Source: Niastella vici
GTDB lineage: Bacteria > Bacteroidota > Bacteroidia > Chitinophagales > Chitinophagaceae
Reading direction: 5' to 3'
NCBI RefSeq assembly: GCF_002077945.1
Contig: NZ_LVYD01000124.1
Coordinates: forward strand, 1-64,000
Length of the DNA stretch: 64,000 bases
The notes beneath the pieces are model-generated. The model worked only from the letters and a program-made list of their open reading frames with translations. It did not search any database and was not told where the DNA came from. The translations under genes were made by a program, and so were the position numbers. Below are positions 10,299 to 43,888 of this stretch, in pieces (the first letter of the stretch is position 1; each line of letters begins with the position of its first letter).

Positions 10299-10316
10299 AA
10301 GGTTTGATTATTAAGC
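10275..10316. repeat. 21-bp partial tandem duplication across a start codon region
   Basis: CATAAGGTTTGATT occurs at 10275-10288 and again at 10296-10309, spaced 21 bp. On the minus strand each copy supplies an ATG with identical upstream bases (AATCAAACCTTATG), so two in-frame starts have the same context. Confidence 0.7.
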
Positions 10317-14577: not shown

Positions 14578-17500
14578 ATGAAAATTAGCGATTGCTTTTT
14601 TTCTGTAAGGGCCTTTTTATGCTTACGGAAAATTAAACTCCTTATGAGATTATCCACCGTATTTCTTTTTATCGGGTTACAGGTATCGGCTAAAAACCAT
14701 GCGCAGGAGACTATTAACCTGAAGGTTGACAATGCAAGTATTCAGGAGATCTTTAAGAAAATTGAAGGTCAAACCAAATACCGTTTTTTTTATAGCAGCG
14801 ATGACCTGCCGGCCAATCAACGTTTTTCAATTGATCTTGCCAATGCCGGGATCAATCAAACGCTTTCTGCCTTGTTTAATGGCACCCATCTTAACTGGAA
14901 ATTGATCCCCAGTCACCGGGTTGTTATCACCCTTTCGAATCAACCATTTATTGCCAACGCAAAGTATAAAAGAGTTACCGGTATGGTGCGTGCCGAAACC
15001 GGTATTGCCATTCCCGGGGCTTCCATAAAGGTAAAAAATACCACCAGGGGTACCAGCACTGACAACGAAGGCAATTTCAGCATTGAGGTGGCCGAAGGCG
15101 AAGTGCTCGAAATTTCCGCCATTAATTATGAACCGGCGGAGATCACGATAGGTAGTCAATCCCAGCTTGCAGTAACCCTGAAGTTGAGTGACGCTATTTT
15201 AGGCGATGTGGTAGTGGTAGGTTACGGCACCAGAAAACGACAGGATGTTACCGGCGCCGTTGTAAAGGCCAATTTACAGGTGCAGAAGCAATCGCCCAAC
15301 TCGAATGTGATGTCGGCTTTAAGAGGAACCGTGCCGGGCCTTACTGTGGGACAAACAACCACAGCCGGCAGCGACCCTACCCTGATGGTGCGTGGCCGCA
15401 ACTCCATTTCGGGCACTACGTCGCCCCTGATCGTGCTCGACGGGCTTATTTACCGGGGATCGATCACCAGCATTAACCCCGCCGACATCTTAAGCATCGA
15501 CCTGCTCAAGGATGCCAGCGCCGCTGCCGTTTATGGTTCCCAGGCATCAAATGGCGTTGTACTCATTACCACAAAAAGTGGCGCCAGCGGTATGGACAAA
15601 GTAACGGTTGACTATACCGGTTCTTATTCCATTCAGGAAATGACAAAAAAAGAAATGAAGCCCATGACGGGCCCACAGTACATACAAAAATTGGGCGATT
15701 GGTATTTGAGTGAAAGCAGGGACCCCAGCGACCCCACCAAAATGAACCCTAACTGGGACCCCAGTACTAAACTGGCCGCCGTGGAAGCCAGCAATTACAA
15801 GAATGGCTATACGGCCGACTGGTGGAGCCTGATGACCAACAGCAGCCCCCGCATACAAAATCATTCTATTGGCGTAAGTGGCCGGTCAAAAAAGACCAAG
15901 TTCTATTTTGGCTACGGGTACTTCGATCAAAAGAACCTGATCATGAATGATAATTACAGAAGGCACAGCCTGCGCATGAACCTCGACACAAAAGTGCTGG
16001 ACTGGCTTACTGTAGGTGCGCAAACGGGTTTATCCATCAACGATTACAGTGGCGTATCGCCCACTTTTTCAGATATCATGTACCTGAAACCGTACACCCT
16101 GCCCTTTGACCCCACCACTGGCCAAATGCTCACCTATTATCAAAACACCACCACGCCTACGGCGCTGGAAATATTGAGAAGGTCGCAGGATAAGGACAGG
16201 AACCTCAACTTCATCGGTAATGTATACGCCAGTGTTGACATTCCGCATGTAAAAGGATTGAACTACCGGGTGAACTTCGGGAACAATTTTATATACTATA
16301 ATAGATTTAATTACAACCAACCTACTGTTGAAGCCACGGCCTATAGAACAAACATGACCGATTATTTTCTCACTATAGATAATATCCTTACCTATAAAAG
16401 GGAATTTGGCTTACATGGCATAGATGTTACCCTGCTCTATGGCGCTGAGGTAAACCGGCATGACGGCTCCAAAGATTCTGCGGCAGGCATCCTCAACGGT
16501 GCGTTATCTTTCAACAGGCTCGATGTGGGCGATGCTTCACGGCTTACCGTATCAAACGATCTTTCCGTACTGCCCTGGAAAGAACAGGCGCTTTATCAAA
16601 TGGCGCGCGCTTCCTACTCCTATGACGGAAAATATATTCTCACCGGTACAGTAAGAAGAGACGGCTTCTCCGGTTTTTCGAGTAAGAACAAAACCGCCAC
16701 CTTCCCTTCTATTGCTTTTGCCTGGCGGGTGAGCAAAGAAGATTTTGTACAATCCTTCTCCTGGTTAAACGATCTTAAATTGCGGGTATCGTACGGCTCA
16801 ACCGGTAACAGAACAGTGGGCAGGTATCAGACCCTGTCTCAAATGAGTGTTGGCCTGGGTAACGGCTATTTATATGGTTCATCAGGCGGCGCACAGTTGG
16901 GATCGTACCTGTCGCAGCAACCCAATACGAATTTAAAATGGGAAACTACCAATTCAACCAATACCGGTTTAGACTTTTCACTGTTCAATAACCGGCTTTC
17001 GGGATCGTTGGATATCTATTTCTCCCAATCAAAGAACCTGTTGAACGCCCGGGCTACGCCAACTATTACCGGCTTTACTTCTTACCTCATCAACATCGGT
17101 AAAATTCAAAACCGGGGCCAGGAGGTGAATATCACGGCTGTCCCGGTCGCAACAAAAAATTTCAAATGGGATGTAACCCTTAACTTTTTCAGGAACAGGA
17201 ATAAGATCGTTGATATTGATGGAACCGGTAAAGACCTGATCAATGGATCAGATCCAATCCTGAGTTTCTTCATCGGTCAGCCTTACGGAGTAGTGTATGA
17301 TTACAAGATCACCGGCATGTATCAACTGGGCGATAATATTCCTACAGGTTTAGCCAACCAGGGCTTTAAGGCCGGACAATACAAGATCGATGATGTTGGA
17401 AAAGACGGCATCATTACGCCCGACGACAAACAGATCATAGGAAAGCTGGACCCTTCCTACAGCTTTGGCATCTCAAACAGTGTTACTTACAAAAACCTGA

Positions 17501-17979
17501 ATTTAAAATTCTTTATCAATTCTATTCAGGGTGGTAAGAACGGCTACCTGGGTAAGCCCGGCGCCATGTTGCAAAACCCTGATAATATCAGGAATAACAA
17601 TGGCTTTGTATTCGACTACTGGACACCCAATAACCCGGGCGCGCGCTACAGAAGCATAGCTGCTTATGTGGCTACCATGGGCGAGAATTTCTGGCCGTAC
17701 CAGTCAAGAAGTTTTGTTCGCCTGCAGGATGTAACGCTTACTTATAGTGTGCCCGATGGTTTTCTTCGGCGGATAAAAGGCATAAAAGCATTTAATGTTT
17801 ATGTGAACGCGACCAACCTGTTCACCATTACCAAATGGGATGGCTGGGACCCGGAAGCCAATCCATCTGCCAGTCAAAGGACCTCGCTTGGACAAAGAAT
17901 TCCGGGAGGTTTGGGCTTAGACCCCAATGGCTATCCGGTTATGAAGAACTATTCTTTGGGAGTAAACTTATCATTTTAA
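14578..17979 (+). CDS. SusC/RagA-family TonB-linked outer-membrane transporter with STN domain
   Basis: 1133 residues. Order: a long N-terminal signal region; a secretin/TonB short N-terminal (STN) domain (ETINLKVDNASIQEIFKKI onward, approximately residues 43-120); a carboxypeptidase-regulatory-like beta sandwich (VTGMVRAETGIAIPGASIKV, approximately 131-205); the SusC signature VVVVGYGTRKRQDVTGAV; a TonB plug with LIVLDGLIYRG and DASAAAVYGSQASNGVVLI; and a 22-stranded-type barrel ending in a terminal aromatic (NLSF). It imports glycans or other oligomers with the SusD protein downstream (25-base gap). The STN domain links it to FecR and the upstream sigma factor. No hydrolase lies in the operon, so the ligand is not evident. 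Confidence 0.95.
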   Translation: MKISDCFFSVRAFLCLRKIKLLMRLSTVFLFIGLQVSAKNHAQETINLKVDNASIQEIFKKIEGQTKYRFFYSSDDLPANQRFSIDLANAGINQTLSALFNGTHLNWKLIPSHRVVITLSNQPFIANAKYKRVTGMVRAETGIAIPGASIKVKNTTRGTSTDNEGNFSIEVAEGEVLEISAINYEPAEITIGSQSQLAVTLKLSDAILGDVVVVGYGTRKRQDVTGAVVKANLQVQKQSPNSNVMSALRGTVPGLTVGQTTTAGSDPTLMVRGRNSISGTTSPLIVLDGLIYRGSITSINPADILSIDLLKDASAAAVYGSQASNGVVLITTKSGASGMDKVTVDYTGSYSIQEMTKKEMKPMTGPQYIQKLGDWYLSESRDPSDPTKMNPNWDPSTKLAAVEASNYKNGYTADWWSLMTNSSPRIQNHSIGVSGRSKKTKFYFGYGYFDQKNLIMNDNYRRHSLRMNLDTKVLDWLTVGAQTGLSINDYSGVSPTFSDIMYLKPYTLPFDPTTGQMLTYYQNTTTPTALEILRRSQDKDRNLNFIGNVYASVDIPHVKGLNYRVNFGNNFIYYNRFNYNQPTVEATAYRTNMTDYFLTIDNILTYKREFGLHGIDVTLLYGAEVNRHDGSKDSAAGILNGALSFNRLDVGDASRLTVSNDLSVLPWKEQALYQMARASYSYDGKYILTGTVRRDGFSGFSSKNKTATFPSIAFAWRVSKEDFVQSFSWLNDLKLRVSYGSTGNRTVGRYQTLSQMSVGLGNGYLYGSSGGAQLGSYLSQQPNTNLKWETTNSTNTGLDFSLFNNRLSGSLDIYFSQSKNLLNARATPTITGFTSYLINIGKIQNRGQEVNITAVPVATKNFKWDVTLNFFRNRNKIVDIDGTGKDLINGSDPILSFFIGQPYGVVYDYKITGMYQLGDNIPTGLANQGFKAGQYKIDDVGKDGIITPDDKQIIGKLDPSYSFGISNSVTYKNLNLKFFINSIQGGKNGYLGKPGAMLQNPDNIRNNNGFVFDYWTPNNPGARYRSIAAYVATMGENFWPYQSRSFVRLQDVTLTYSVPDGFLRRIKGIKAFNVYVNATNLFTITKWDGWDPEANPSASQRTSLGQRIPGGLGLDPNGYPVMKNYSLGVNLSF

Positions 17980-18004
17980 GGGTTGAACAATTAAACTGTA
18001 CGAC

Positions 18005-19714
18005 ATGAAAAAAGTAATAATCAGCATATTCGTTCTTAGCATGGGAACAGCTTTGTTCTCCTGCAAGAAAAGCTTTTTGGACGAAGAGCCACTGTCGATA
18101 TACACGCCGGATAATTCGCTGCAAACATCTGCACAATTTCAGCAGGCTATTAATAATGTGTACAATGGCATCAGGAATATTTACATGGGAAATATTAACC
18201 TCGATACCTATTTTGGCTTGTATTATGCCACTGATTTTGCCTTCAACGCTACAGACTACGATCCTGCAGCAAAATTGAATGCGTATAAAGCCACCATGGT
18301 GCCCAGCTATTTTATTCCGCAAAATATCTGGACTGCGTATTACAAGATCATCACCAACGCCAACCTCATTATTGCCCGGGTACCCGAAGCCAGTCAGCTT
18401 TCAGATGCTGACAAGAACAGTTTCCTGGGGCAGGCGCTGTTTTTCAGAGCGTATTCATACAATATACTGGCGAACTTATTTGGCGGGGTACCGCTTGAGC
18501 TGAACGAGCTCACAGAGCCCCGGTACGATTATGTGCGGGCTTCGCGCGATGAAGTATATCAGCAATGCAAGAAGGACCTGCAGCAGGCAGCAGCGTTATT
18601 AAAGAACATCAATGAAGTAAGCGACGGCGTGGTAAACAAACAGATCGCGAACCACGTACTCACCGAAGTGTTGATTTCCTTAAAAGATTATGATGGCGCC
18701 ATTGCCAGCGCCACCAGTGTGATCAGTTATTCAGGCGTATCGTTGATGACAAGCCGCTTTGGAAGAAGGGCCACTACACCGGGCGATGTATACCGGGATC
18801 TATTTGAGTACAACAACCAAAATTACAGTACAGGTAACCATGAAGGATTGCTGGTAATTCAAACCGCCCTGAATAACCTTGCTTCCGTGGGTGATCAAAC
18901 AGCCTGGGCAATAGTGCCCGGTTTTAACAGCTTACGATATGTGGAAACAGGCACCAGTACCAAGAAGAATGTAATGTATAACGGGAACTTCGTAGATAGC
19001 ATATCCTCCAATGGTATTGGCTGGATACGGCCAACCAACCATTTTAACTATGAAATATGGACACCTGGTGATATTCGTAACTCCTCCTACAATATTGTAA
19101 GGGATATCCGTATTTCCGGCGTTGCGTCCACTTCGCCCGATTATGGCAAATGGTATGTAAAAGATGGTTATAAGGCTAAAACCTTACCGGCCGATTTCAG
19201 GGACACCATCCGCAACTTTTACCCCATTATCAGGAAGACATCACCCTCGGCAGGCGACTTTGTTTCAGCAGCCGGTCCGGCTATGTTAACCAACACAACC
19301 AATCCGTTTGGCGGCATCCTGCTTAATGGCGCTACCAGATTGTTTATGCAAAAATACATGGCCCGCCTGGCAGAAACTTACTTACTGCGGGCTGAGGCTT
19401 ATTTGGGAAAATCCCAAACACAAAAAGCAGCTGATGATATAAACGTACTGCGAACAAGGGCTAACGCCACACCCGCTACGGCTGCAGACATGAATATGGA
19501 TTATATTCTCGACGAGCGCCTGCGGGAGCTGTACCTGGAAGAATTCAGGGCAGTTACGCTAACCCGTTTGGGATTATTGTACGATCGCGACAAACGGTTC
19601 AACCCCAAATCGGGACTCACCATTGAAACCTATCACAATTTGTGGCCCATACCTACCACCGAAATAACCCAGAATACCGGGGCGGTGTTGAAGCAGAATG
19701 ACGGGTATCAGTAG
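18005..19714 (+). CDS. SusD/RagB-family nutrient-binding lipoprotein
   Basis: 569 residues. The lipoprotein signal ends ALFSC-KKSFLDEEP, the standard SusD N-terminus, so the protein should sit on the outside of the outer membrane as the lid of the SusC barrel. TPR-like helices follow (QALFFRAYSYNILANLFGGVPL is the conserved family block, here cited as FFRAYSYNILANLFGGVP), and the C-terminal block YLLRAEAYLG...DINVLRTRA...ILDERLRELYLE is characteristic. It pairs with the preceding SusC gene, and a strong hairpin ends the operon 31 bases later. The substrate is not inferable. Confidence 0.95.
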   Translation: MKKVIISIFVLSMGTALFSCKKSFLDEEPLSIYTPDNSLQTSAQFQQAINNVYNGIRNIYMGNINLDTYFGLYYATDFAFNATDYDPAAKLNAYKATMVPSYFIPQNIWTAYYKIITNANLIIARVPEASQLSDADKNSFLGQALFFRAYSYNILANLFGGVPLELNELTEPRYDYVRASRDEVYQQCKKDLQQAAALLKNINEVSDGVVNKQIANHVLTEVLISLKDYDGAIASATSVISYSGVSLMTSRFGRRATTPGDVYRDLFEYNNQNYSTGNHEGLLVIQTALNNLASVGDQTAWAIVPGFNSLRYVETGTSTKKNVMYNGNFVDSISSNGIGWIRPTNHFNYEIWTPGDIRNSSYNIVRDIRISGVASTSPDYGKWYVKDGYKAKTLPADFRDTIRNFYPIIRKTSPSAGDFVSAAGPAMLTNTTNPFGGILLNGATRLFMQKYMARLAETYLLRAEAYLGKSQTQKAADDINVLRTRANATPATAADMNMDYILDERLRELYLEEFRAVTLTRLGLLYDRDKRFNPKSGLTIETYHNLWPIPTTEITQNTGAVLKQNDGYQ

Positions 19715-19745
19715 AGCAGCAGCTTGCTTCATCAACATTAAAGAG

Positions 19746-19779
19746 AGCCTTCAGATCGGTAGATCTGGAGGCTACTTTT
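19746..19779 (+). terminator. Rho-independent terminator of the SusC/SusD operon
   Basis: AGCCTTCAGATC-GGTA-GATCTGGAGGCT is a 12-bp stem with one G-U pair, followed by ACTTTTA. It starts 31 bases after the SusD stop and belongs to the same sequence family as hairpins at 4582 and 41723. Confidence 0.85.
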
Positions 19780-19854
19780 AGCAAAAAAACAATGGAACCT
19801 GTAAAAACAAAGGTTTACTTACGAAACCGATTGTAGTATTTAATAGCTGTCATA

Positions 19855-20547
19855 TTACTTACCAACTATCTCAATCTCTTTTTCAATACTTGCAAAGTCG
19901 CCTGTGTGTGCATGTTTTTTTATTACCTGCAGGAATGCGGCTTCGTTAATTTCGCCGCTCTCAGGTTTCAAATATTCAATATGGCTGATTGGCATTACAG
20001 GTTTACTTATTTTTTTATCAAGATATGAAAGCAAAAGTGATTGATTTCTTGTCTTGATAGCAGCATATATTAAAAGCTCATAATTGTTGTTTAGGTCAAA
20101 CTCCTGGGCCTCTATTTCCATTCGTCGCTCAATTATTTTTTCGTATGAATTATAACTTTGAAAATATTCTTCAACTTCCGCTTTTATTCTTGTCGCCAGG
20201 AAAAAAGCAAGGTCGTTCCATTCCTGGGTTAGCGGATAGAATGTCCTTCGATAATTATTCATTATATCGCCCAGCGGTACAATATTGAGCATTGTAAATA
20301 TGTGTCGCCTGTAAAAGTCAAGCGGTTTAATACTGGTCCTAACCTGGAGTTCATATGAACCCCGGCTTTTCCCGATAAAAACAGCCTGTTCAAGCTGATT
20401 GACCTGGCGTGATATTTTGATCATAGAACTCGTCTGGTCAATTATATAACCGTCAAGATGTGACAACAACGCCTTCCCGAACTTTTTAAATGTTGGGTTA
20501 ATGTCTTTTTTATCCAGTTGCTTGTATACTTTCAATTCTTCCCACAT
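19855..20547 (-). CDS. Hypothetical protein, no recognised domain
   Basis: 230 residues, soluble, without signal peptide or membrane segment, rich in Glu, Lys, Ile and Asn, and AT-richer than the SusC/SusD operon. Visible segments include an N-terminal mixed region (FKKFGKALLSHLDGYIIDQ), a middle helix-rich part (RTFYPLTQEWNDLAFFLATR), and a C-terminal tail that may be a small helical repeat (NNNYELLIYAAIKTRNQSLL). The composition and the central DFYRRHIF motif suggest a conserved cytosolic protein, but I do not recognise the family. Its start ATG follows a degenerate 21-nt-period array, which separates it from the lipoprotein gene on the same strand. Confidence 0.65.
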   Translation of the reverse strand: MWEELKVYKQLDKKDINPTFKKFGKALLSHLDGYIIDQTSSMIKISRQVNQLEQAVFIGKSRGSYELQVRTSIKPLDFYRRHIFTMLNIVPLGDIMNNYRRTFYPLTQEWNDLAFFLATRIKAEVEEYFQSYNSYEKIIERRMEIEAQEFDLNNNYELLIYAAIKTRNQSLLLSYLDKKISKPVMPISHIEYLKPESGEINEAAFLQVIKKHAHTGDFASIEKEIEIVGK

Positions 20548-20640
20548 GCAAATTGCATTGAATACCGAATAAAGTATTTCTGCTATTATACGCCAGATTT
20601 AACAGTAAACAAAATATTCAATTTCCCTGTAGCCCTTATC

Positions 20641-21018
20641 AGTGCAAAACTTGCTCAAAATGCTGCATTTACCTGTAACTATATGGCGTCCGTGAATCAA
20701 AATGTAATATCCAGATCTCAAGATGCCGTATTTTGATCTAACTTTTTTGTATCCAGGTTCAACTATAGTGCTTCGCTGCTCAACTTTGAGTCATAAATGC
20801 TTAAAGATGGAATGTCAGTGGCTATTTTTAATTTATAAATCGCAAACTTATAATCCAAAGTTACGCAGGGAAAGTGCATAGTTTTGCACTGACGCGATAT
20901 AGTTGGTTACTGACATTCCATAATGAGATCTGGATACAAAAGCTTGCGTACTGGATTTACTATAACGATACCTGGCTACAGCATACTTAGCTTCGGATAA
21001 TCCATAGTTAACTCTGGA
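20641..21018. repeat. Degenerate 21-nt-period array 1
   Basis: Eighteen consecutive units each exactly 21 nt can be laid out without a gap; the phase may continue left to about 20578. Units are poorly conserved but repeat at matching columns, for example GCATACTTAGCTTCGGA, CCATAGTTAACTCTGGA and CCATAATGAGATCTGGA. The last six units match those ending array 2 (26231-26356) at up to 19 of 21 positions. Stops interrupt both strands, so no intact protein is encoded. Confidence 0.75.
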
Positions 21019-21053
21019 TGGGGAGGGATGAATGGCGCAGGGGGCATAACCTT

Positions 21054-21671
21054 TTATCTTATGCTACAAAACACATCAAAACTACCCTCAACCTGCGATG
21101 TTTTTCCTGCAATGTAATAATCATAACCGCCTGGCTGTTGTTCTACATTTGCCAGGATACCACTAAATTGTCCTTTAATCCTTTTAGTTTTAAATGGATT
21201 ACCAGCCTGTTGCTCGTCAGTTACTGAAGTGATAACCAGCGTTAACGGTTTAAGTCCAAGTTTAGGCGCATAATAGGCTACCCGAAACAGGTTTGTTGGT
21301 GGCATTGGGTCTTTAGGATATGGGCCATAAAATGCTGATTGGTTATTGTCGGGTACATTCTCATTACATTCTGAGGCAGACTTACAATCGTATACCTGGT
21401 AAGTTCCTGTTTTTAGATCCTGCGCATATGCAGCAATGGTAAACTGAAGATCATCTTTATCACTTAGATAACCTAACATAAAGTGAGCTCCTGCGTAACC
21501 GGCGGTAATAATAGGTGCCGGATCAAGTGATCTTTTATTTCCATCGATCATCAATTCTATCTTTTGTCCTGCGTCATCTCCTGACCGGTTTTCTTCTGAT
21601 GCCGGTCCTTTGCAACTTAATAATGACAAGGCCAATAACAAAGAGAGCGGTTTGTAGAATGCTTTTATCAT
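21054..21671 (-). CDS. Small secreted lipoprotein, function unknown
   Basis: 205 residues. A lipoprotein signal peptide ends LLSLLSC-KG (approximately residue 20), predicting attachment to the outer or inner membrane. The mature part is a compact beta-rich domain with motifs such as LMIDGNKRSLD, DLQFTIAAYA, TGTYQVYD and GQFSGILANVE, reminiscent of Bacteroidota lipoproteins with a DUF6252-like beta sandwich; I cannot name it with confidence. No catalytic signature is seen. It lies alone: array 1 begins just beyond its 3' end, and 380 bases separate it from the divergent response regulator. Confidence 0.7.
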   Translation of the reverse strand: MIKAFYKPLSLLLALSLLSCKGPASEENRSGDDAGQKIELMIDGNKRSLDPAPIITAGYAGAHFMLGYLSDKDDLQFTIAAYAQDLKTGTYQVYDCKSASECNENVPDNNQSAFYGPYPKDPMPPTNLFRVAYYAPKLGLKPLTLVITSVTDEQQAGNPFKTKRIKGQFSGILANVEQQPGGYDYYIAGKTSQVEGSFDVFCSIR

Positions 21672-22054
21672 TTAGTCAATATTACCAGCTAAAATAGAAA
21701 ATCAATTGTATTCATGCTGTCATTTTTTGTTAAAAGCCGGTAATATGTATTTCCCTATTATTTCATCCGAGGGTGACTGGGTATTGTAGTTGCCACCCGT
21801 AATTACGGTTACCATAATTTGCTCTTCCCCGATATATATTTTTTGTCCGCCGTTAACTTGAGCGGCCTTTCCATAATATTAAAGAACTATTGGTCAAACG
21901 GTTACAACAACTGCATCTTTTTACATTGTTCGCTTTTTGATACAAGATATGTCCGGTGGCAAACAGTCTGGTCATCGGGTTCGCTGAGTTTCTCGATTAT
22001 TGTTTACCTTTAAAAAACAGCTTTTTACGCACTAATCAAACCAATATAAATGCT
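21672..22054. other. Divergent intergenic region before the LytTR regulator
   Basis: About 380 bases separate the lipoprotein start from the regulator's preferred ATG. Short open frames are present, but none has coding character. No exact TAnnTTTG promoter box was found. Confidence 0.35.
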
Positions 22055-22768
22055 ATGGATCTCCTGAACTGTGTGATTATTGAAGATAATCCCGTTGACA
22101 GGTTGTTGCTCGAAGAATATCTTGCAAAATATTCCTTTATTAATATTACAGGCACCTTCGTTAATCCTGTTGAAAGCCTGGAACATTTAAAAACGAATCT
22201 CATCAATATTTTATTCCTTGATGTGGATATGCCAGTTATTAATGGCATCGATTTTTTAAAATCTTTAGCTGATCCCCCACCCTGCATTATGGTAACGGCT
22301 CACCCCGAATATGCCATAGACGCTTTTGATGTTCAGGCCATAGATTATCTGTTAAAACCTGTAAAACCCGAGCGTCTCGATAAAGCCATTCAACGCACCC
22401 TCGAATTGCAGGAAATAAAGTCGAAAGCGGTTCAATACAGCATGCACTTTGAAAATGATTTCCTGATGATCAAAGAAGGCACCGTTTTAAACAAAGTGCA
22501 TATCGCAGATATTCTTTACCTGGAGGCCCTGACCAATTATACAAAAGTGGTCACTGTTCAAAAAAAATACATTACCCTGAACAACCTGAAAAGCTTTCTG
22601 GATTATTTACCGCCAAAAAGGTTCTTACGCATCCATCGCAGTTATGCGGTAGCGGTAGATAAGATCCAGGGAGTTTACAAAAATGAACTGTTGATAAGTG
22701 AGCAGCGGCTGCCGTTAGGAAAAACATACCGCCAGGAAGTAAAAAAACACTTTACCGAAAGTAACTGA
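22055..22768 (+). CDS. LytTR-family response regulator
   Basis: 237 residues from the ATG at 22055. Receiver domain: acidic pair in VIIEDNPVDRLLLEEYL, phosphoacceptor Asp in ILFLDVDMPVINGIDFL, and conserved Lys in YLLKPVKPERLDKAI. A LytTR DNA-binding domain follows from about residue 135 (FLMIKEGTVLNKV, ILYLEALTNYTKV, FLRIHRSYAVAVDKI). The open frame reaches back to 21956, but those 33 residues do not fit the receiver fold. It is followed 19 bases later by a TPR-histidine kinase, almost certainly its partner. LytTR proteins bind direct repeats, which were not located here. Confidence 0.9.
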   Translation: MDLLNCVIIEDNPVDRLLLEEYLAKYSFINITGTFVNPVESLEHLKTNLINILFLDVDMPVINGIDFLKSLADPPPCIMVTAHPEYAIDAFDVQAIDYLLKPVKPERLDKAIQRTLELQEIKSKAVQYSMHFENDFLMIKEGTVLNKVHIADILYLEALTNYTKVVTVQKKYITLNNLKSFLDYLPPKRFLRIHRSYAVAVDKIQGVYKNELLISEQRLPLGKTYRQEVKKHFTESN

Positions 22769-22787
22769 CCATTTGCCATTGCATTGC

Positions 22788-24638
22788 ATGAGAGTAGTTT
22801 TCGTAAGCATAATCCTTATTGTTGTAGCTTTATTGCCGGCCGCCAGGGCGCAACCCGTCAATCCTGACTCGCTCTTCACCCTGGCCGGTAAATACCGCAC
22901 AGATGGCGATTTTAACCGGTCCATCGCTGTCTGCCGCCAATGTTTGTCCATTGCACAAAAAAATAAAGATTCGTTAAGGATCGGTAATGCATTGATCGGT
23001 ATTGGAATTGCCAACGATAAGAAAGGGAAATATGAGGAGGCCCTGGAGTATTATTTTAAGGCCCTGAAAGTTTATGGTAACATTGGTAACCAGGTAAAAG
23101 TTGGTGGAACGCTTAAAAACATCGGTAATACCTACCGGGTGCTGCAACGGTACAACAGCGCATCCAGCTTTTTGCTACAGGCGCTTGCCGTACAACAAAA
23201 AGAAAAAGATTCAACCCGGATAGCCAATATTTTAAATGATATAGGGTCGGTATATTACGACCAGGATAGTTGCGCCAAAGCATTGAGTTATTTCAAAAGG
23301 ACCATTACAGCGTTTAATGCGCATGTTACCGATGAAATAAGAGCCAATGTGCTTAACAATATAGGGTTAACCTATGCAAAACTGAAATTATACGGGGAGG
23401 CGCTCAGGTATTATCAGCCGGGACTTGCATTGATGCAAAAAAGGAACGACCAGTATGGTATTGCGTTGGTGCTGGGCAATACGGGTGATCTATACTACAA
23501 TATGAATAATTTTTCAAAAGCGCTGGAATACCATTTGCAGAATCTGGCCATTGTACAAAAGATCAATTCAAACGAACTGTTGCAGCAATCCTATAATAAC
23601 CTGAAAAGAACGTATTTGGCGTTGGGAAATTATAAAAAAGCATATGAATACCAGCAAGGCGAAATGGCCATTAAGGATACCATCTACAAAAAGCAAAGCA
23701 TCCTGAATTATGAAGAAATGCAGGCTAAATACCAGGCAGAGAAAAGCCAGCAGGAGATCATGCTCTTACAGCGCGACAATCAAATTGCTACTATTGAGCT
23801 AACAAACCAACGTCGTACCAAATATTTCCTGTTAACCGGTATTGCCTTAACGCTTATCCTTGCTGTTTCATTATACAGAAGCTATATCAATAAAAAAAGA
23901 GTAAACCAGGAACTTAACCACCTCAATAATAAACTGGCTGAAGCCAATAATTCAAAAGTTAAACTCCTAAGCATCATCACACACGATCTCAGGAGTCCGG
24001 TAAGCAGCCTTTTCAATTTTCTGCAATTGCAAAAAATAAATTCCGGTAAGCTCAATAAAGAGGAAAGGGAGAAAGTTGACCGCAATATTAGTCAATCGGC
24101 TGAAAACCTGCTGGAGGCCATGGAAGATATCCTCATCTGGTCAAAAAGCCAGATGGAACATTTTACGCCGGTGCGGGAGTTTTGTGATGTGGATGAATTG
24201 CTCGACGAAATAATCCATTTAAATTCGCCATTTGCCGCAAGCAAAAACATAATGCTGAAAAAAGAAGTGGCCAGCGGGTTCTCTTTTTATACAGACCCAA
24301 ATTTTATCAAGATCATCTTACGTAACCTGGTGAGTAATGCCATAAAGTTTACCCCACCAGCGGGTATGGTTATCCTCGCATCTGTACAACATAACCAGGT
24401 TATTGACTTCAGCGTAAAAGATACTGGCCAGGGCATTGAGCCAGCCGACCTGAAAAATATTTTTGAATGGAACAGCATTCGCAGTGATTCTTCAGGGTTG
24501 GGATTAAAGCTCGCCCGGGAGTTTACCGAAAAACTGGGGGGAACCATATCGGTTACTTCACAAAAAGAACAGGGCACTGAATTCATTGTGTCAATTCCAC
24601 GCCAAAAAAACGAACAGGATAGCCGTACCATCCAATAG
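22788..24638 (+). CDS. TPR-containing sensor histidine kinase
   Basis: 616 residues from the ATG at 22788. Signal peptide (LLPAARAQ), then a periplasmic array of tetratricopeptide repeats (GNALIGIGIANDKKGKYEEAL, shown by GKYEEALEYYFKAL; RIANILNDIGSVYYDQ; NVLNNIGLTYAKLKLYGEAL) to about residue 310; a coiled segment; one transmembrane helix (YFLLTGIALTLILAVSLYRS); the His-box LLSIITHDLRSPVSS; and a HATPase with NLVSNAIKFTPP, DTGQGI and GLGLKLAREF. It is thus a classical kinase, unlike the LytS type usually paired with LytTR regulators. The frame opens with TTG at 22773, but the ATG fits the signal peptide. It is co-transcribed with the regulator upstream. Confidence 0.92.
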   Translation: MRVVFVSIILIVVALLPAARAQPVNPDSLFTLAGKYRTDGDFNRSIAVCRQCLSIAQKNKDSLRIGNALIGIGIANDKKGKYEEALEYYFKALKVYGNIGNQVKVGGTLKNIGNTYRVLQRYNSASSFLLQALAVQQKEKDSTRIANILNDIGSVYYDQDSCAKALSYFKRTITAFNAHVTDEIRANVLNNIGLTYAKLKLYGEALRYYQPGLALMQKRNDQYGIALVLGNTGDLYYNMNNFSKALEYHLQNLAIVQKINSNELLQQSYNNLKRTYLALGNYKKAYEYQQGEMAIKDTIYKKQSILNYEEMQAKYQAEKSQQEIMLLQRDNQIATIELTNQRRTKYFLLTGIALTLILAVSLYRSYINKKRVNQELNHLNNKLAEANNSKVKLLSIITHDLRSPVSSLFNFLQLQKINSGKLNKEEREKVDRNISQSAENLLEAMEDILIWSKSQMEHFTPVREFCDVDELLDEIIHLNSPFAASKNIMLKKEVASGFSFYTDPNFIKIILRNLVSNAIKFTPPAGMVILASVQHNQVIDFSVKDTGQGIEPADLKNIFEWNSIRSDSSGLGLKLAREFTEKLGGTISVTSQKEQGTEFIVSIPRQKNEQDSRTIQ

Positions 24639-24700
24639 CCGTTCCTGTATTTTTTCAACCCACTGCTACATTGACCGGGAAGCAAGAACCGTATTAAAGC

Positions 24701-24708
24701 TAATTTTG
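24701..24708 (+). promoter_or_regulatory. -7 box TAATTTTG before the small secreted protein
   Basis: TAATTTTG fits TAnnTTTG exactly, about 93 bases before the ATG at 24801 and 27 before an in-frame ATG at 24735. A -33 element is not evident. Confidence 0.45.
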
Positions 24709-24800
24709 CTGCCTTCCGATATTGATCCGTAACTATGAAAGGTTTATATCCCCGCCTGAAAACCGCTCGAAACCATCTTCAGAACCTTAAAACACACATC

Positions 24801-25172
24801 ATGTTCAACAAAAAAAGAACAACCGGTTTTATACTGGTGTTTTCAATTCTTTTCTTATGCCGGTCATCCTCCTATGCCCAGCCCGGATCGGTAAGAGACA
24901 CAACGTACGAAGTTATATCCTGTTGTGTTGGTTCAGTACCCGACACAGCTTATGCGGCGGAGATAATGTCTGACAATAGCTCTAAACAACCAGCACGCAT
25001 CACATTCTACAGGATCTATTGCAAAACCTGTTGTTTCATATTGCCTTCCGGCCAAAAGACCCTGCCGAAGAAAGACAAGGTAACAAACCCGGAATTGATC
25101 AAAAAACTGCGTGAAGTATTGAAAAAACAATTGGAGCATAACCTGAAAGTGGTGAACACCACAAAGTATTAG
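24801..25172 (+). CDS. Small secreted cysteine-containing protein, unknown function
   Basis: 123 residues from ATG 24801; an in-frame ATG at 24735 would add 22 residues. The signal peptide (FILVFSILFLCRSSSYAQ) ends with an Ala-Gln cleavage site. The mature part has four cysteines in two CC pairs (VISCCVG and CKTCCF), suggesting disulfides or metal binding, and a basic helical C-terminus (LIKKLREVLKKQLEHNL). No family was recognised. It follows the kinase gene but has its own promoter-like box, and a hairpin terminator follows at 25201. Confidence 0.6.
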   Translation: MFNKKRTTGFILVFSILFLCRSSSYAQPGSVRDTTYEVISCCVGSVPDTAYAAEIMSDNSSKQPARITFYRIYCKTCCFILPSGQKTLPKKDKVTNPELIKKLREVLKKQLEHNLKVVNTTKY

Positions 25173-25200
25173 CTGGTAACTGTAAAAGATAGTTTGTAAA

Positions 25201-25230
25201 AGTGTTCCGCCGCAGCGGGGCACTTTTTTT
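25201..25230 (+). terminator. Rho-independent terminator
   Basis: AGTGTTCCGC-CGCA-GCGGGGCACT is a 10-bp stem with two G-U pairs followed by seven T, 28 bases after the small secreted protein's stop codon. Confidence 0.85.
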
Positions 25231-25415
25231 AATGCCCGGCCATGCCCTCCCTTCGTGTATTATTTCCCGCCCCTTATACACTATAATTTACATCCGTTCT
25301 TTACTGTAATAAATTTATTGGCTAAAGTCATACCTGTTACCCCTCCGGAAAATAATTATCCCCTCCTTTGAGAAAAGCCAACCTGTCATTTTCTAATTAT
25401 TAAACTTTTTAATCT

Positions 25416-25799
25416 ATGAGCCCAAGGGTGATAGACGTTTATAAAAGGATCTGGATAGTTTCTGGAACTGTTATGGAAGCAAACACTTTCACCCCATTGA
25501 AAGGCATGTCGGTGGTTGCTTTCGACTGTGATGGCTTACTGGGTACCGACTGCCTGGGAAAAGCGATTACAGATGATGAAGGCCGGTATTGCATCATTTT
25601 TACCTGGGATAATTATAAACACCTGCTTGTATTTCAACCGGATGTATATGTTAAGGTGTACGATGAAAATAAAAAACTGCTAAAGGATACCCGTAAAGAG
25701 GTAGTACGTACTATGTCATTCCGCAAAACGATCAACATTGAGGTAGACGAGCATGCCTTGTTTTTAACCATCGACGACCTGATGGAAATGATCAGCTAA
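25416..25799 (+). CDS. Transthyretin-like/carboxypeptidase-regulatory-like single-domain protein
   Basis: 127 residues with no signal peptide. The sequence WIVSGTVMEANTFTPLKGM...TDDEGRYCIIF is the beta-sandwich pattern of transthyretin-like or carboxypeptidase-regulatory domains: a strand, a pro-rich turn, then DDEGRY. The remainder has VYVKVYDENKKLLKDTRKE. Such domains normally occur attached to secreted enzymes or receptors; here it is a free cytosolic protein, whose role is unknown. It is transcribed alone, with array 2 beginning about 140 bases after the stop. Domain recognition is by pattern only. Confidence 0.65.
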   Translation: MSPRVIDVYKRIWIVSGTVMEANTFTPLKGMSVVAFDCDGLLGTDCLGKAITDDEGRYCIIFTWDNYKHLLVFQPDVYVKVYDENKKLLKDTRKEVVRTMSFRKTINIEVDEHALFLTIDDLMEMIS

Positions 25800-25936
25800 G
25801 CGGCGTCCGAAACACACATTTTAAAAGCATTTCGTGCAGATAACAAAAGAAGCCCTCAACACAGTGAATTTGGATGGGTCAACCTCCGGCAATAGCGTCT
25901 TCCACTCCCTAATCATTGTGAGATTTTAGCCTGATA

Positions 25937-26398
25937 ACGGCTTACCAGGCTAAGATTTCAGCATACCGGACTAAGTTTTCGGCTTACCAGACTCAAAATG
26001 TCACATTTTAACTTAAAGATGCCGCATTTTGATTCAACATTTCGTCTTACCAGAACAACTTCAGCGCATTGCAGCCCCGGGTTGGGTCATACCTGAATGG
26101 AATTTCATCATACCAGACTCGATTTTCATCATACCCGAATGGATTTTCATCATCCCAGGCAAAGATTGGGCTATACCTCCCTTTGGTATGGCCCAATCTT
26201 AGGCCGGAACGGCGAATTCTTAACCAATGATACCACAATGTTGCTCACTGACGCTCCATAATGAAATCTGGATACAATATTTTGAGATCGGGATTTAGTA
26301 TAGTTATACCTGAATACTGCATACTTAGCTTGGGATAATGTATAGTTAACGCTGGATACACTATTTTGAAGGAGGAATAGCAAATTCAACTACAACAT
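25937..26398. repeat. Degenerate 21-nt-period array 2
   Basis: Twenty-two consecutive units, all exactly 21 nt, with no phase break. The best-conserved neighbours share TTTTCATCATACC (around 26100-26150). Columns 5-10 are typically C(A/T)TACC in the left half; the right half ends in GGA. In the plus frame the left half reads as heptads such as SAYRTKF, SAYQTQN, SSYQTRF and SSYPNGF, broken by stops. It shares blocks with array 1 but contains two more units between the shared anchors. Confidence 0.8.
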
Positions 26399-26465
26399 TT
26401 ACCAATCCAACTACTTTTTGCCGGGCCGGATGCTGGAATTTTGCAGTTATACAAACATCATCATC

Positions 26466-27206
26466 ATGTATAATCAACTTGAAGGTAAAGTAGTGGCCAT
26501 TACCGGAGCAAGCAGCGGCATCGGGAAAGCAATTGCCCGGAACTTGTCAAAATCTGGCGCCAGACTTGTTTTGGGCGCCCGAAGAATGGAACAATTGGAA
26601 AAGATCGCAGAAGAGATTAAAGGCTCAGGAGGCGAATGTGCATACATTATAATGGACGTCAGGCATAAAGTCGACCTGGAACATCTGGTGAATACAGCTG
26701 TTAAAAAATATGGCCGACTCGATGTGATCATCAACAACGCCGGCGTTGCCCAGGTTAGCAGGATCGATGAATTGGATATCGATGGCTGGGAAGAAATGAT
26801 CGACATAAACCTGAAGGGTGTCCTCTATGGGATGGCGGCAGCCATACCCGTATTCAGGCAACAGCAATCCGGGCATATCGTCAATATCATTTCCACTGCA
26901 GGAATAAAGATTGTGCCTACACAGGGCGTGTACGCTGGTACGAAGAATGCCGTTCGTACTATAACGGAAGCCTTCCGGCAGGAATCTGATGGCACTATAC
27001 GGATCACAGGCATTTCCCCGGGAATGGTAAAAACGGATTTTGCCAATAATATGAAGGATCATGCAACACGGGCAGCCATATCAGAAAAGATGGAACAACT
27101 GGCCATTGAACCGGAAGCTATTGCTGATGCCGTGCTCTATGCCATCAGCCAGCCTGCAGACGTTGAAGTGGGCGATATTGTTATCCGCCCCGCACGGCAG
27201 AATTAG
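26466..27206 (+). CDS. Short-chain dehydrogenase/reductase (SDR)
   Basis: 246-residue classical SDR oxidoreductase using NAD(P)H. Signatures: nucleotide-binding TGASSGIG (approximately residues 13-20), ARRMEQL at the end of strand 2 (Arg favours NADP), VIINNAG, and the active-site YAGTK (Tyr-x-x-x-Lys, approximately 156-160) with an upstream Ser in IISTAG. The C-terminal ISPGMVKTDF motif supports the call. The open frame starts at a TTG (26418), but MYNQLEGKVVAITG at 26466 is the family N-terminus. An AraC gene follows after 30 bases with its own promoter-like box. The substrate (probably a small alcohol, ketone or aldehyde) is unknown. Confidence 0.92.
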   Translation: MYNQLEGKVVAITGASSGIGKAIARNLSKSGARLVLGARRMEQLEKIAEEIKGSGGECAYIIMDVRHKVDLEHLVNTAVKKYGRLDVIINNAGVAQVSRIDELDIDGWEEMIDINLKGVLYGMAAAIPVFRQQQSGHIVNIISTAGIKIVPTQGVYAGTKNAVRTITEAFRQESDGTIRITGISPGMVKTDFANNMKDHATRAAISEKMEQLAIEPEAIADAVLYAISQPADVEVGDIVIRPARQN

Positions 27207-27209
27207 TAA

Positions 27210-27217
27210 TAACTTTG
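27210..27217 (+). promoter_or_regulatory. -7 box TAACTTTG before the AraC gene
   Basis: TAACTTTG matches TAnnTTTG exactly, starting just after the SDR stop and 20 bases before the AraC ATG. The AraC gene may therefore also be transcribed from its own start, with a very short leader. Confidence 0.5.
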
Positions 27218-27236
27218 CATATCCCAAAGCGCTAAT

Positions 27237-28154
27237 ATGAAACCATCAATGCCAGGCACATACACAATCGGAAGCATTTCAGAACTGATGCGCTACCTGC
27301 AACAGCCAGAACCTTTGCATCCGCTGATTGCCCTGGTGAACTATAACCAGGTACAACCGTATGGCTTTGAAAAGGGAAAGAAGATCTGCCTCGACCTGTA
27401 CAAAGTGTCGTTCAAAACAAAATTCAGGGGACAGGTAAAATACGGACAGGGATATTATGATTTTGAGGAAGGCGGGCTGGCTTTTATAAAGCCCAGGCAA
27501 ATCGTTATCTCTTCAACTGACGAACAAAGCTATGAGGGCTATGCCCTGTTCTTTCACCCCGATCTTATCAGGAACTATCCGCTTAACAACGTGATAAACA
27601 ACTACGGCTTTTTTTCATATTCTGTATCAGAGGCGCTCTTTCTTTCAGCCAAAGAAAAAGCTGTTATCAACCATTTGTTCAGCAGCATTGCAGCAGAATT
27701 GGAGAATAATATAGATCAATACAGTCAGAATATACTTGTGTCACAAATAGAGCAGTTGTTGAATTACAGCGACCGGTTTTACAACCGGCAGTTCATTACC
27801 CGCAAAGCCATAAACAATGAGATCATCACATCATTGGATAAACTGCTTATTTCTTATTTCAATGAAAACAAAGGACTCGAAAACGGTCTACCTTCCGTGC
27901 GATATGTCAGCAGCCGGCTGCAATTATCATCACGCTACCTCAGCGATCTGCTACGATCCCTCACCGGTCAAAATGCCCAACAGTATATTCAACATAAAGT
28001 CATCGAATATTCGAAAGACATGCTTGGCTCAACCGGCCTCTCCGTAGCCGAAATAGCCTATCAACTTGGGTTCGAACATCCGCAATCTTTCAGCAAACTA
28101 TTCAAGGCAAAAACCAATCTCTCGCCAACGGAATACAGGCAGTCGTTTAATTGA
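27237..28154 (+). CDS. AraC-family transcriptional regulator
   Basis: 305 residues. An N-terminal cupin-like sensor half (PLIALVNYNQVQP, VKYGQGYYDFEEGGLAFIKP) is followed by a C-terminal AraC DNA-binding domain: VRYVSSRLQLSSRYLSDLLR (first HTH) and LSVAEIAYQLGFEHPQSFSK (second HTH), ending LSPTEYRQS. It sits directly downstream of the SDR gene in the same direction, the usual arrangement for a regulator controlling its neighbour in response to a small molecule. A short hairpin GCTTTC-GA-GAAAGC lies after the stop (28171-28184) without a U-tract. Confidence 0.9.
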   Translation: MKPSMPGTYTIGSISELMRYLQQPEPLHPLIALVNYNQVQPYGFEKGKKICLDLYKVSFKTKFRGQVKYGQGYYDFEEGGLAFIKPRQIVISSTDEQSYEGYALFFHPDLIRNYPLNNVINNYGFFSYSVSEALFLSAKEKAVINHLFSSIAAELENNIDQYSQNILVSQIEQLLNYSDRFYNRQFITRKAINNEIITSLDKLLISYFNENKGLENGLPSVRYVSSRLQLSSRYLSDLLRSLTGQNAQQYIQHKVIEYSKDMLGSTGLSVAEIAYQLGFEHPQSFSKLFKAKTNLSPTEYRQSFN

Positions 28155-41944: not shown

Positions 41945-42370
41945 GTAAAAAAAGTGTGGTGCCGGCAAAATGATGTTACAATTCCCGAAATAAAACTAAT
42001 TCTGAGGAAAAAGAATGAAGTTGTGAAGAAATAAATTTAGTTGTAAGCATATTGAGTTAATTCTGATAAAAAAGTAACTATTTCCCAGGAAAAGTAGTTA
42101 TCTCATATAAAACAATAAGCAATAGCTGAAAAACTGAATTATCTTTCATGAAAAAGTAGCTAACACCGTCAGAAAAACAATTATCAGCTACCAGGAAGTA
42201 ACTATCGTCCACCAAAAAATAAATATCGCCCACCAAAAAGTAAATATCGGGCACCTAAAAGTAAATATCGGGCACCTAAAAGTAATTATCTCCCCAAAAC
42301 AGTAATTATAGTCCACAGTTTTTTAATTTATCTACGAAAAAAGGAGCTAATTGTGGTGAAAAAGAATTTA
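41945..42370. repeat. Degenerate approximately 21-nt-period array 3
   Basis: Some twenty units of 19-22 nt, each containing an A-tract (AAAAA) followed by GTAANTATC. The four best units around 42200-42290 are exactly 21 nt apart and read CACCAAAAAGTAAATATC or CACCTAAAAGTAAATATC. In one plus frame they give heptads HQKINIA, HQKVNIG and HLKVNIG, ending at a stop. The last unit carries the stop codon of the ADP-ribosylglycohydrolase gene. The sequence is unlike arrays 1 and 2 but the period is shared. Confidence 0.7.
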
Positions 42371-43888
42371 TTGCCCCTTCAACATCACCGATAATCTGTT
42401 TGCTGTTTCGAGGATGCAGGCACTTTCTTTTATTTGGGCAAACACATTTGTTATCGTGCTGGAAAAATTTGACAAACCAATAAATGCACCCATTATTTGT
42501 GCGGCAAGTGATGCATTGGTATCTGTATCACCGCCACAAAGTATAATTTCGGAAAGTATAGCTTCAAAATTGCTTTCCCTGATCTTATTAGCTGCAAAAA
42601 TTGAAAAAGGCACCGATTCAATAACATGGCCAGATGTGCCTACTAAGGTTGCTGCTTCGCGAATGCTCATTGAGGTATCAGCTAATATTAAAAGATTATC
42701 CCGCACCGCGCTGTCGGGCAGTTGGGGTAATAATAATTCCCCCAGACTAATTCCCCACTTCCACCTGTCAGTTATAATGTAATGCAGGGAATAGAGGATT
42801 GCCAGGCACCCAACATAGGCTTCATCATTTTTGTGGGTAATATTACATACATCCCGAATAAGCGTTCTATCTGTTTCGGGGTTGATAAAAAAAGCAAGTG
42901 GAGCAATACGCATAGCAGCTCCATTGCCGGCTGCTTAATCCCCCGACCGGCCTGAAAGGGCCCAGTGAGCGCCGGCCTGCAGATCGCGCAACGCTTTCAA
43001 TGTACTGGCGCCAAGACCGGTTAATTTTCCCTTATTATACCACGTTAGCATATGCTGTGCGATGCTGGCGGCTGATACCTGCCCGGTATCGAGAATAGAT
43101 TCGCAGGTTGCCATGGTAAGTTGCGTATCGTCAGTTATGCCATTGACCACCTCTAAACTGATCATTTCTACATTCGACCGGCCTTCGTAATAGCTACCAA
43201 TGGCATCACCGATGGCGCCGCCGGCCAGGCAACCGCTTAGCCTGTCACTTGTAGTTATAGTCGGTCTGGGATTGTCTTTAGCCATATGTTCCTGAACAAG
43301 CTCAAAATCCCCGAAATAGTTTTCAGTTGGAATTACCTCTTCTATTGCTGCATTTTGCCTGGGCTTTAAATTAGCTATTACAAAAGAGCCCTCATTGACG
43401 CCATGAACTGCAAACAACACCTCATTGCTCAAGCAGTGTTTTGCCAATGTTGAAAAGGTAACGTTTGTGTCGCCAATTACACGGAGTAATTCATCTTCCA
43501 GGTCAATCTTTTGATCAATAGTTACCTGCTGCCAGGGTGCGATCACAAACGGTTTGTTGCTTTCAAAATAATCTTCGTAAACGTGGTAATGAACACCGGC
43601 CACATGAAGTTCGATTTGTTCATCGGGAAAATGGGCAGAGTCAAGAATTTCAACTCCACCAATAGGGAGTAAAAAATAGCCATTCTCGAGTTGTATATTA
43701 AATCTGAATGAGTACCACTTTTCGTAATCCTTCTTCCCCTCATCACAGAATTCCTGAACCTCCTTTTTTATTAATTGATATGCCTCAGCAGGTATAAATT
43801 CACCCCAAATATGTCCCATGCCACCGAAAACCTGATGAAATTGGGTTGTTCCGATCAAAACTTTATGAGAATAGATATAACCTTTCAT
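42368..43888 (-). pseudogene. ADP-ribosylglycohydrolase interrupted by an in-frame stop, with an extra N-terminal domain
   Basis: One continuous frame from ATG 43888 to 42368 broken by a TAA at 42935-42937. Upstream the frame ends ALSGRSGD; after the stop it continues AAGNGAAMRIAPLAFF, the conserved run of ADP-ribosylglycohydrolases (DraG family), where a Tyr normally occupies the stop position, so TAT/TAC to TAA is the simplest event. Other hallmarks: LSGCLAGGAIGDAIGSYYEG and NGITDDTQLTMAT (first metal Asp pair), and GGDTDTNASLAAQIMGA (second). About 200 N-terminal residues (YSHKVLIGTTQFHQVFGGMG..., shortened HKVLIGTTQFHQVFGG) belong to an unrecognised domain. It would remove ADP-ribose from proteins. 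The 43951 TTG start is not preferred. Confidence 0.85.

Follow-up and report, generated by a model that had tools for sequence, protein, structure and literature searches.

Two 21-nt repeat arrays of Niastella vici belong to a dispersed intergenic family with inverted arms, probably a foldback element

How did two related tandem arrays of 21-nt units come to lie 5 kb apart in the genome of Niastella vici, and what kind of element do they represent? Both arrays, array 1 and array 2 (W1 and W2 in the copy tree), are located in the first 64,000 nucleotides (the window) of contig NZ_LVYD01000124.1 (C124:1-64000), part of a genome of 10.06 Mb on 134 contigs. This own genome is labelled G000, relatives are labelled G001 onward, and other own copies are named by contig. 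A first-pass annotation had derived the two arrays from one array, with unit-step copy change, at two loci 5 kb apart. The present analysis suggests that both are members of a dispersed family of intergenic, non-coding DNA, which is probably a non-autonomous foldback element of Niastella resembling a miniature inverted-repeat transposable element (MITE) and composed of putative protein-binding units.

Periodicity analysis at lag 21 revealed strong self-matching at 20588-21057 (array 1), 25873-26440 (array 2) and 42064-42379 (array 3). BLAST aligned 20902-21019 with 26240-26357 over 118 bp without gaps at ~80% identity. The two anchors from which the first-pass annotation had argued could be recovered: the pair at 20704-20745 and 26000-26041 was identical at 29 of 42 positions (12/21 and 17/21 per unit), and the six final units matched at 13, 18, 14, 15, 19 and 18 of 21 positions, three of them at 18-19 as claimed. 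From the start of the pair to the last six units, 9 units were counted in array 1 and 11 in array 2 (7 versus 9 after the pair), and this 42-nt difference appeared in the nine-copy alignment as a single gap at 26110-26151 of array 2. The real alignment scored 103.3, compared to a mean of 39.3 and a maximum of 69.4 among 1000 unit-order shuffles and a maximum of 32.4 among 1000 column shuffles. Common ancestry with whole-unit copy change is thus supported by the conserved unit order and the 42-nt gap. Coding sequence was rejected as an explanation, because no open reading frame (ORF) of at least 80 amino acids was present inside arrays 1 and 2.

A genome search using two parts of array 2 revealed nine clear copies on eight contigs (two on C124 and one each on C54, C76, C113, C102, C2, C58 and C42). 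The copies were about 350-480 bp long and consisted of about 17-22 degenerate 21-nt units, the order of which was conserved. When the copies were compared by BLAST together with 1-1.5 kb of flank where the contig allowed (the flank of C76, at a contig end, was limited), the matches were confined to the element, about 350-550 bp, with the exceptions that the similarity among C54, C102 and C113 continued leftward for a further 57-108 bp and that right ends varied. The confinement of the matches to the element, despite the compared flanks, indicates that the copies were dispersed. ORFs of at least 90 amino acids partly overlapped the copies C76, C113, C2 and C42, at no shared position.

Copying of one array from the other within the 5-kb interval was considered as the origin of the pair, since only about 0.04 pairs of copies so close together would be expected for nine random copies in 10.06 Mb. 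The extents of homology argue otherwise: array 2 aligned at 88% identity with C113 (370 bp) and C2 (341 bp) but over only 118 bp with array 1, and array 1 aligned with C58 over 317 bp at 79% identity. In the copy tree, which was rooted for drawing only, W1 and C58 were split from the other seven copies with support of 100/100, while W2 grouped with C113 and C2 (86/94). Each of the two arrays is thus paired elsewhere, and the duplication proposed in the first-pass annotation could not be upheld. Local duplication is ruled out by the tree and the homology extents, unless gene conversion has overwritten the signal, and is regarded as extremely improbable.

The internal layout of the copies revealed a second feature. 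The unit identity matrix of arrays 1 and 2 was block-shaped, left-half units resembling left-half units and right-half units resembling right-half units, while same-sense similarity between the halves was mostly poor. The first-pass annotation had recognized the kinship of the arrays and had missed this opposite orientation of units in the two halves. The left arm of array 1 (20660..20848, + strand) consists of 21-nt units of the right-arm type in reverse-complemented form. In an nhmmer search, the nine-copy model matched array 1 at 20660-21035 on the plus strand and again at 20651-20878 on the minus strand (E 9e-9), and R1, a profile model of the right arm alone, matched the left arm on the minus strand at 20653-20725 (E 0.002) and 20736-20847 (E 0.004). 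The right arm of array 1 (20852..21019, +) holds the 118-bp ungapped match to array 2 and was matched by R1 at 20852-20996 (+) with E 1e-29, this copy being in the R1 model. The left arm of array 2 (25937..26184, +) has counterparts on C42, C113 and C2 with 86-91% identity and a minus-strand self match of the nine-copy model (E 2e-10). The right arm (26189..26377, +) was matched by R1 with E 1e-34, this copy also being in the model, and its first 147 nt (alignment A1) were free of indels in all nine copies, with a mean column identity of 83%. Between the arms of array 2 lies a central palindrome (26162..26200) with 16-nt arms, 15/16 complementary, and a 7-nt loop; it appeared longer by eye in the C113 copy, whose minus-strand matches to array 2 included 48 bp at 94%.

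The same layout could be observed in other genomes. Twenty-one of the 23 non-own loci were searched in detail (L142, the same place as L137, and the weak L154 were left out), and as L144 and L152 are one place, 20 distinct loci were evaluated. R1 matches on both strands were present at 12 of these, always minus on the left and plus on the right; two had same-strand pairs (L132, L148) and six a single match. When unit profiles were built independently for right arms and reverse-complemented left arms in four species, the units were related (e.g. CATAnTTAGTTACnGATGAnn in G001). Profile correlations between different sets, taken as the best of 21 rotations with no null computed, were 0.41-0.79 in the same sense versus 0.29-0.52 after reverse complementation. 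Across 21 elements, the mean inverted arm score was 19.2, compared to 11.1 for shuffled and 12.5 for direct arms, and dyad z-scores, inflated by picking the centre as the best over positions, reached 8.3 in array 1 and 8.4 in array 2. The foldback layout, with long inverted arms composed of tandem subrepeats, is therefore present in the family, although weak in C2, C102 and C76.

Inverted arms could also indicate a structured non-coding RNA, or a 3' hairpin similar to repetitive extragenic palindromes (REP) and bacterial interspersed mosaic elements (BIME), in which transcribed arms fold and act in termination or mRNA stability. Besides the inversion itself and the central palindrome of array 2 and C113, single-copy folding pointed in this direction (z -4.8 in C113, -4.2 in C42 and -3.4 in array 1), as did two-sided changes in 12 of 55 predicted consensus pairs and the position of three of the nine own copies (C102, C2, C42) between convergent genes in automatic gene calls. 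However, the other six own copies folded at z -2.4 to 0.1 with differing structures, and the consensus fold reached only -16.8 kcal/mol, with a covariation term of -0.75, over 441 columns. Arms scored 404 with their own partners; permuting the partners within genomes gave 405.7 (5799 of 10000 permutations as high), and permuting them over all genomes gave 364.5 (381 of 10000 as high as 404). An Rfam search of window 20300-26900 returned one chance-level match (E 0.99) and none above the gathering score. A simple automatic gene caller placed nine copies between co-directional, five between convergent and four between divergent genes, with 13 of 31 unassigned, so that the copies are tied to no single gene orientation and no clear bias is seen. 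Structured RNA was rejected, as neither a consensus structure nor arm co-variation within genomes could be found, and it is considered an unlikely explanation.

A regulatory role was suggested by the 21-nt period. In the available part of the source, LytTR-family proteins are described as binding 9-bp direct repeats mostly 12 bp apart, a 21-bp period equal to that of the arrays (PMC6193735). A LytTR response-regulator gene lies between the arrays (21956-22768; Pfam LytTR domain at residues 180-266), and the unit consensus contains ATAnTTAG. The arrays might thus be operators for such a regulator. Full 9/9 half-site matches exceeded mononucleotide shuffles in the right arm (9 vs 3.1), the left arm (7 vs 3.1) and the reversed left arm (8 vs 3.6). 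At 8/9 positions, however, the counts were 48 vs 47.4 in the right arm, 40 vs 45.5 in the right arm reversed, 58 vs 46.1 in the left arm and 81 vs 49.0 in the left arm reversed, so that enrichment depends on arm and strand. The half-site pattern comes from other phyla and may not be that of the host; moreover, the copies occur in all gene arrangements, some hundreds of bases from any called gene, and are not promoter-specific. With half-site counts this mixed, LytTR operators are judged quite improbable. A clustered regularly interspaced short palindromic repeat (CRISPR) array was rejected, owing to the absence of spacers and low unit identity, and no Cas family was detected among the 10 proteins scanned at 14578-28154 (six with Pfam families, four without).

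The distribution of the family beyond N. vici was evaluated with R1. At E up to 0.1, matches were found in five of ten Niastella genomes: 16 in the own genome, 13 in G001, nine in G002, six in G004 and three in G008. G001, G002 and G004 each carried their own set of copies. In G002, copies on different contigs reached 97.5% identity over 357 bp (17 x 21); in G004 the highest identity was 91%, over 428 bp without gaps, and in G001 it was 80%. By eye, the elements of G002 and G004 displayed a similar order of unit types. When a single own copy was used as the BLAST query, none of 38 relatives, nine of which belong to the same genus, gave a match; the R1 model did find the family in four of these nine. 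Across the family, under stricter filters, only the own genome among 79 was matched by R1, the sample holding one other Niastella (G007). The exact right-arm core pattern, which divergent Niastella copies are not expected to match, was absent from one genome each of 84,980 species, a set from which own or very near records were possibly excluded. A phage or plasmid origin was rejected: distant blastn with array 2 gave no match among 50,697 records of phages and 72,556 of plasmids. As a separate observation in G002, a module of 97-127 bp stands left of three copies and, reversed, at the right of one, including L130 509-635 (G002 C1:509-635); at E up to 1e-5 it was found only in these four places of that genome, two being 100% identical.

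One site allowed comparison with and without the element. The C42 copy sits between convergent genes, and both genes lie side by side in G001, G002 and G005. The ends of the gene matches are about 50 bp apart in G001 and about 225 bp in G005, where by eye the spacers hold terminator-like hairpins and no element is visible, and R1 finds no match. About 920 bp separate these ends in G002, where other sequence, by eye similar to array 3, occupies the spacer. Elsewhere, the best matches of the two genes were far apart in G004, one gene was found in G003 and G008, and none in G006, G007 and G009. The presence of the C42 copy is therefore specific to one lineage, the site being short in two relatives (G001, G005); presence and absence were read from spacer lengths, R1 and inspection by eye. 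For the one neighbour searched on each side of arrays 1 and 2, only one relative had a good homologue (G002, G003), and the gene that follows across the array was not the same there. Separately, a 68% identical homologue of a gene between the two arrays is encoded in Niastella soli MAH-29.

These comparisons also bear on whether the arrays could be inert minisatellites that replication slippage has expanded in place. Whole-unit indels, the intergenic location and the abundance of further short tandem arrays in these genomes agree with such an origin. Growth in place, however, explains neither the dispersed homologous copies with unrelated outer flanks, nor a unit order conserved well above shuffles, nor the relatives that R1 detected in other species, and minisatellites are accordingly disfavoured as a very unlikely explanation.

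The foldback reading was favoured because the unit, a spacing of roughly 21 bp and the arrangement in two arms are kept, while pairing, RNA fold and gene orientation are not. We infer from these patterns that the element moves and that its units probably serve as protein-binding sites. The element may be non-autonomous and MITE-like, its copies having been spread by an enzyme that acts in trans. Each 21-bp unit, corresponding to two helical turns, is a predicted recognition site, and a protein would bind repeatedly on one face of the DNA. Units could be gained or lost through slippage or unequal recombination. The nine own copies differed by gaps of 21 nt (C76 versus the rest), 42 nt (array 1, C58, C102) and 21 nt (C54), together with single bases (C54, C102) and, near the end, 5 nt (C58) and 1 nt (C113). 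The 42 nt are the two extra units of array 2 (26110..26151, +; columns 174-215 of the nine-copy alignment A2), which are absent from array 1, C58 and C102, C54 being without one of the two. The proposal that gaps should fall at multiples of 21 agreed with most large gaps in multiple alignments (21, 42 and 21 nt in own copies, 21 and 24 nt in G004) and failed for small gaps and for pairwise gaps, which were mostly of other lengths. Multiple alignments were trusted above pairwise ones, the sets of other species being hand-trimmed and the gap costs chosen by the analyst. The 21-nt step is preferred for large length changes, without being absolute.

Several observations weigh against the foldback reading. 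Ten gaps of 1-2 nt occurred in the hand-trimmed copy sets of three other species, and naive pairwise gaps of 21 or 42 nt made up 17/131 in the own genome, 0/79 in G002, 1/54 in G004 and 0/8 in G001; since small non-21 indels exist, helical phasing is not strict. No sharp common ends could be recognized across copies, the ends of which vary, and no clear target-site duplication was apparent, none being visible by eye in three recent G002 copies; the G002 copy ends carry CGCATTTATG / CGTATTTATG by eye. No transposase or autonomous partner was seen, and no pair of R1 matches flanking a gene was noticed in 10 genomes, no search aimed at transposases having been made. The dyad was weak in C2 (z 0.9), C102 (1.9) and C76 (2.4), and same-strand R1 pairs exist at L132 and L148 and also at G001:C16. 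Furthermore, R1 E-values are rough, the matches in G008 are weak (best E 0.007), and five of the ten Niastella genomes (G003, G005, G006, G007, G009) had no R1 match.

Other repeats of the same unit length were also present. Array 3 (42064..42379, no strand assigned), characterized by Tandem Repeats Finder, periodicity and matches in other genomes, is a separate dispersed family with 21-nt units like AAAAGTAAATATCGGGCACCT; its relatives in G000, G002, G004, G005 and G008 showed 69-89% identity, some over only 35-60 bp. A further 21-nt family (units like ACGATGGGGCACTTGTTGCAA) directly adjoins the C113 copy at L052 4127-4409; it was located at eight further places in the own genome, and two sampled copies shared its start. 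Among self-match lags of 8-63 in non-coding DNA, lag 21 ranked first in 464 kb of the own genome and 400 kb of G004, second to 14 in G003 and G079, and outside the top four in G013. It is tentatively suggested that arrays 1 and 2, array 3 and the C113-adjacent family form a foldback superfamily in Niastella sharing an architecture of 21-bp protein-binding units, which might have spread in trans by an enzyme recognizing the unit array and not fixed ends.

Inverted partners within 150 bp are common among short tandem arrays: they accompanied 36/56 in the own genome and 35/85 in G004, compared to 11/140 and 14/225 control segments; a repeat run gave 38/56 (control 22/200) and 32/85 (13/200). The corresponding counts were 24/76 in G003 (control 11/200) and 2/5 in G013 (16/200). 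Heptamer arrays with inverted partners were also observed in G079, of another genus of the family (C1 1000001-1200000; 18/87, control 10/200). Many intergenic inverted pairs with 7, 8, 14 and 16-nt units occurred in own C124 64001-464000 and G004 C1 1000001-1400000, with types including AGAAGTA / CTTCTTA and GGTAACC. Such pairs were rare between divergent genes, in 3/29 and 3/25 regions, versus 39/141 and 39/118 of all spacers of at least 150 bp (own and G004). Elsewhere in the own genome, a tandem 35-nt unit with 18.7 copies and a 95% match was observed at C124 373393-374046. In the window, two 21-nt units at 95% lie across the start of the minus-strand ORF 8742-10298 (10268-10309) and by eye are unlike arrays 1-3.

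To our knowledge, inverted arms of tandem subrepeats are known mainly from foldback transposons of animals and plants. Drosophila FB and similar foldback elements are dispersed and have internally repetitive inverted arms, and eukaryotic foldback transposons are mostly larger than the Niastella element. Among the matches listed, the nearest bacterial case was a MITE containing a minisatellite, and no earlier description of such a Niastella repeat was found in the open-access literature, subscription papers being outside the scope. Genus-wide copies of many ages may offer a way to learn how arrays gain and lose units and what moves them, and the same set bears on whether a 21-bp (two-turn) array acts as a binding platform.

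REP/BIME, REP doublets forming hairpins (REPINs) and BOX elements are intergenic, multi-copy and modular and are thought to be moved in trans. REPs are described, in the portions of the sources available, as palindromes of 20-40 bp (PMC3733652, PMC3116915), whereas the Niastella element consists of 350-480 bp of 21-nt units. No conserved hairpin was found in the latter. The accessible part of another report describes direct repeats of the heptamer TAACTGA, found in Beggiatoaceae, cyanobacteria and five Bacteroidetes, which also form intergenic short tandem arrays (PMC4679880); these differ in being a fixed direct heptamer, mostly just upstream of start codons in one genome, and not a dispersed element of 400 bp.

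A closer likeness was found in the BrickBuilt MITE of Porphyromonas gingivalis, which was compared by structure. P. gingivalis and Niastella belong to one phylum. BrickBuilt, according to the available part of its description, is intergenic, has 19 copies in one genome and a limited host range, and combines tandem 23-nt repeats with a leader and a tail with terminal inverted repeats like ISPg1 and ISPg9 (PMC4596501). The intergenic location, multiple copies, spacer-free tandem units of similar size and limited host range are shared with the Niastella element, which differs in its degenerate 21-nt units, two opposed arms and conserved unit order, and lacks the 23-nt, leader and tail organization (PMC4596501). 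Long inverted arms made of internal repeats, as in the Niastella element, characterize Galileo (PMC3573991); further eukaryotic foldback transposons include Tetris (PMC4079207) and the nematode Tm1 (PMC3169594). These eukaryotic transposons belong to P-element or Mutator groups, and the comparison with the Niastella element is one of layout. Among the matches listed, and as far as the sources describe them in the parts available, the BrickBuilt MITE and the insect foldback transposons are the closest described systems to the Niastella element.

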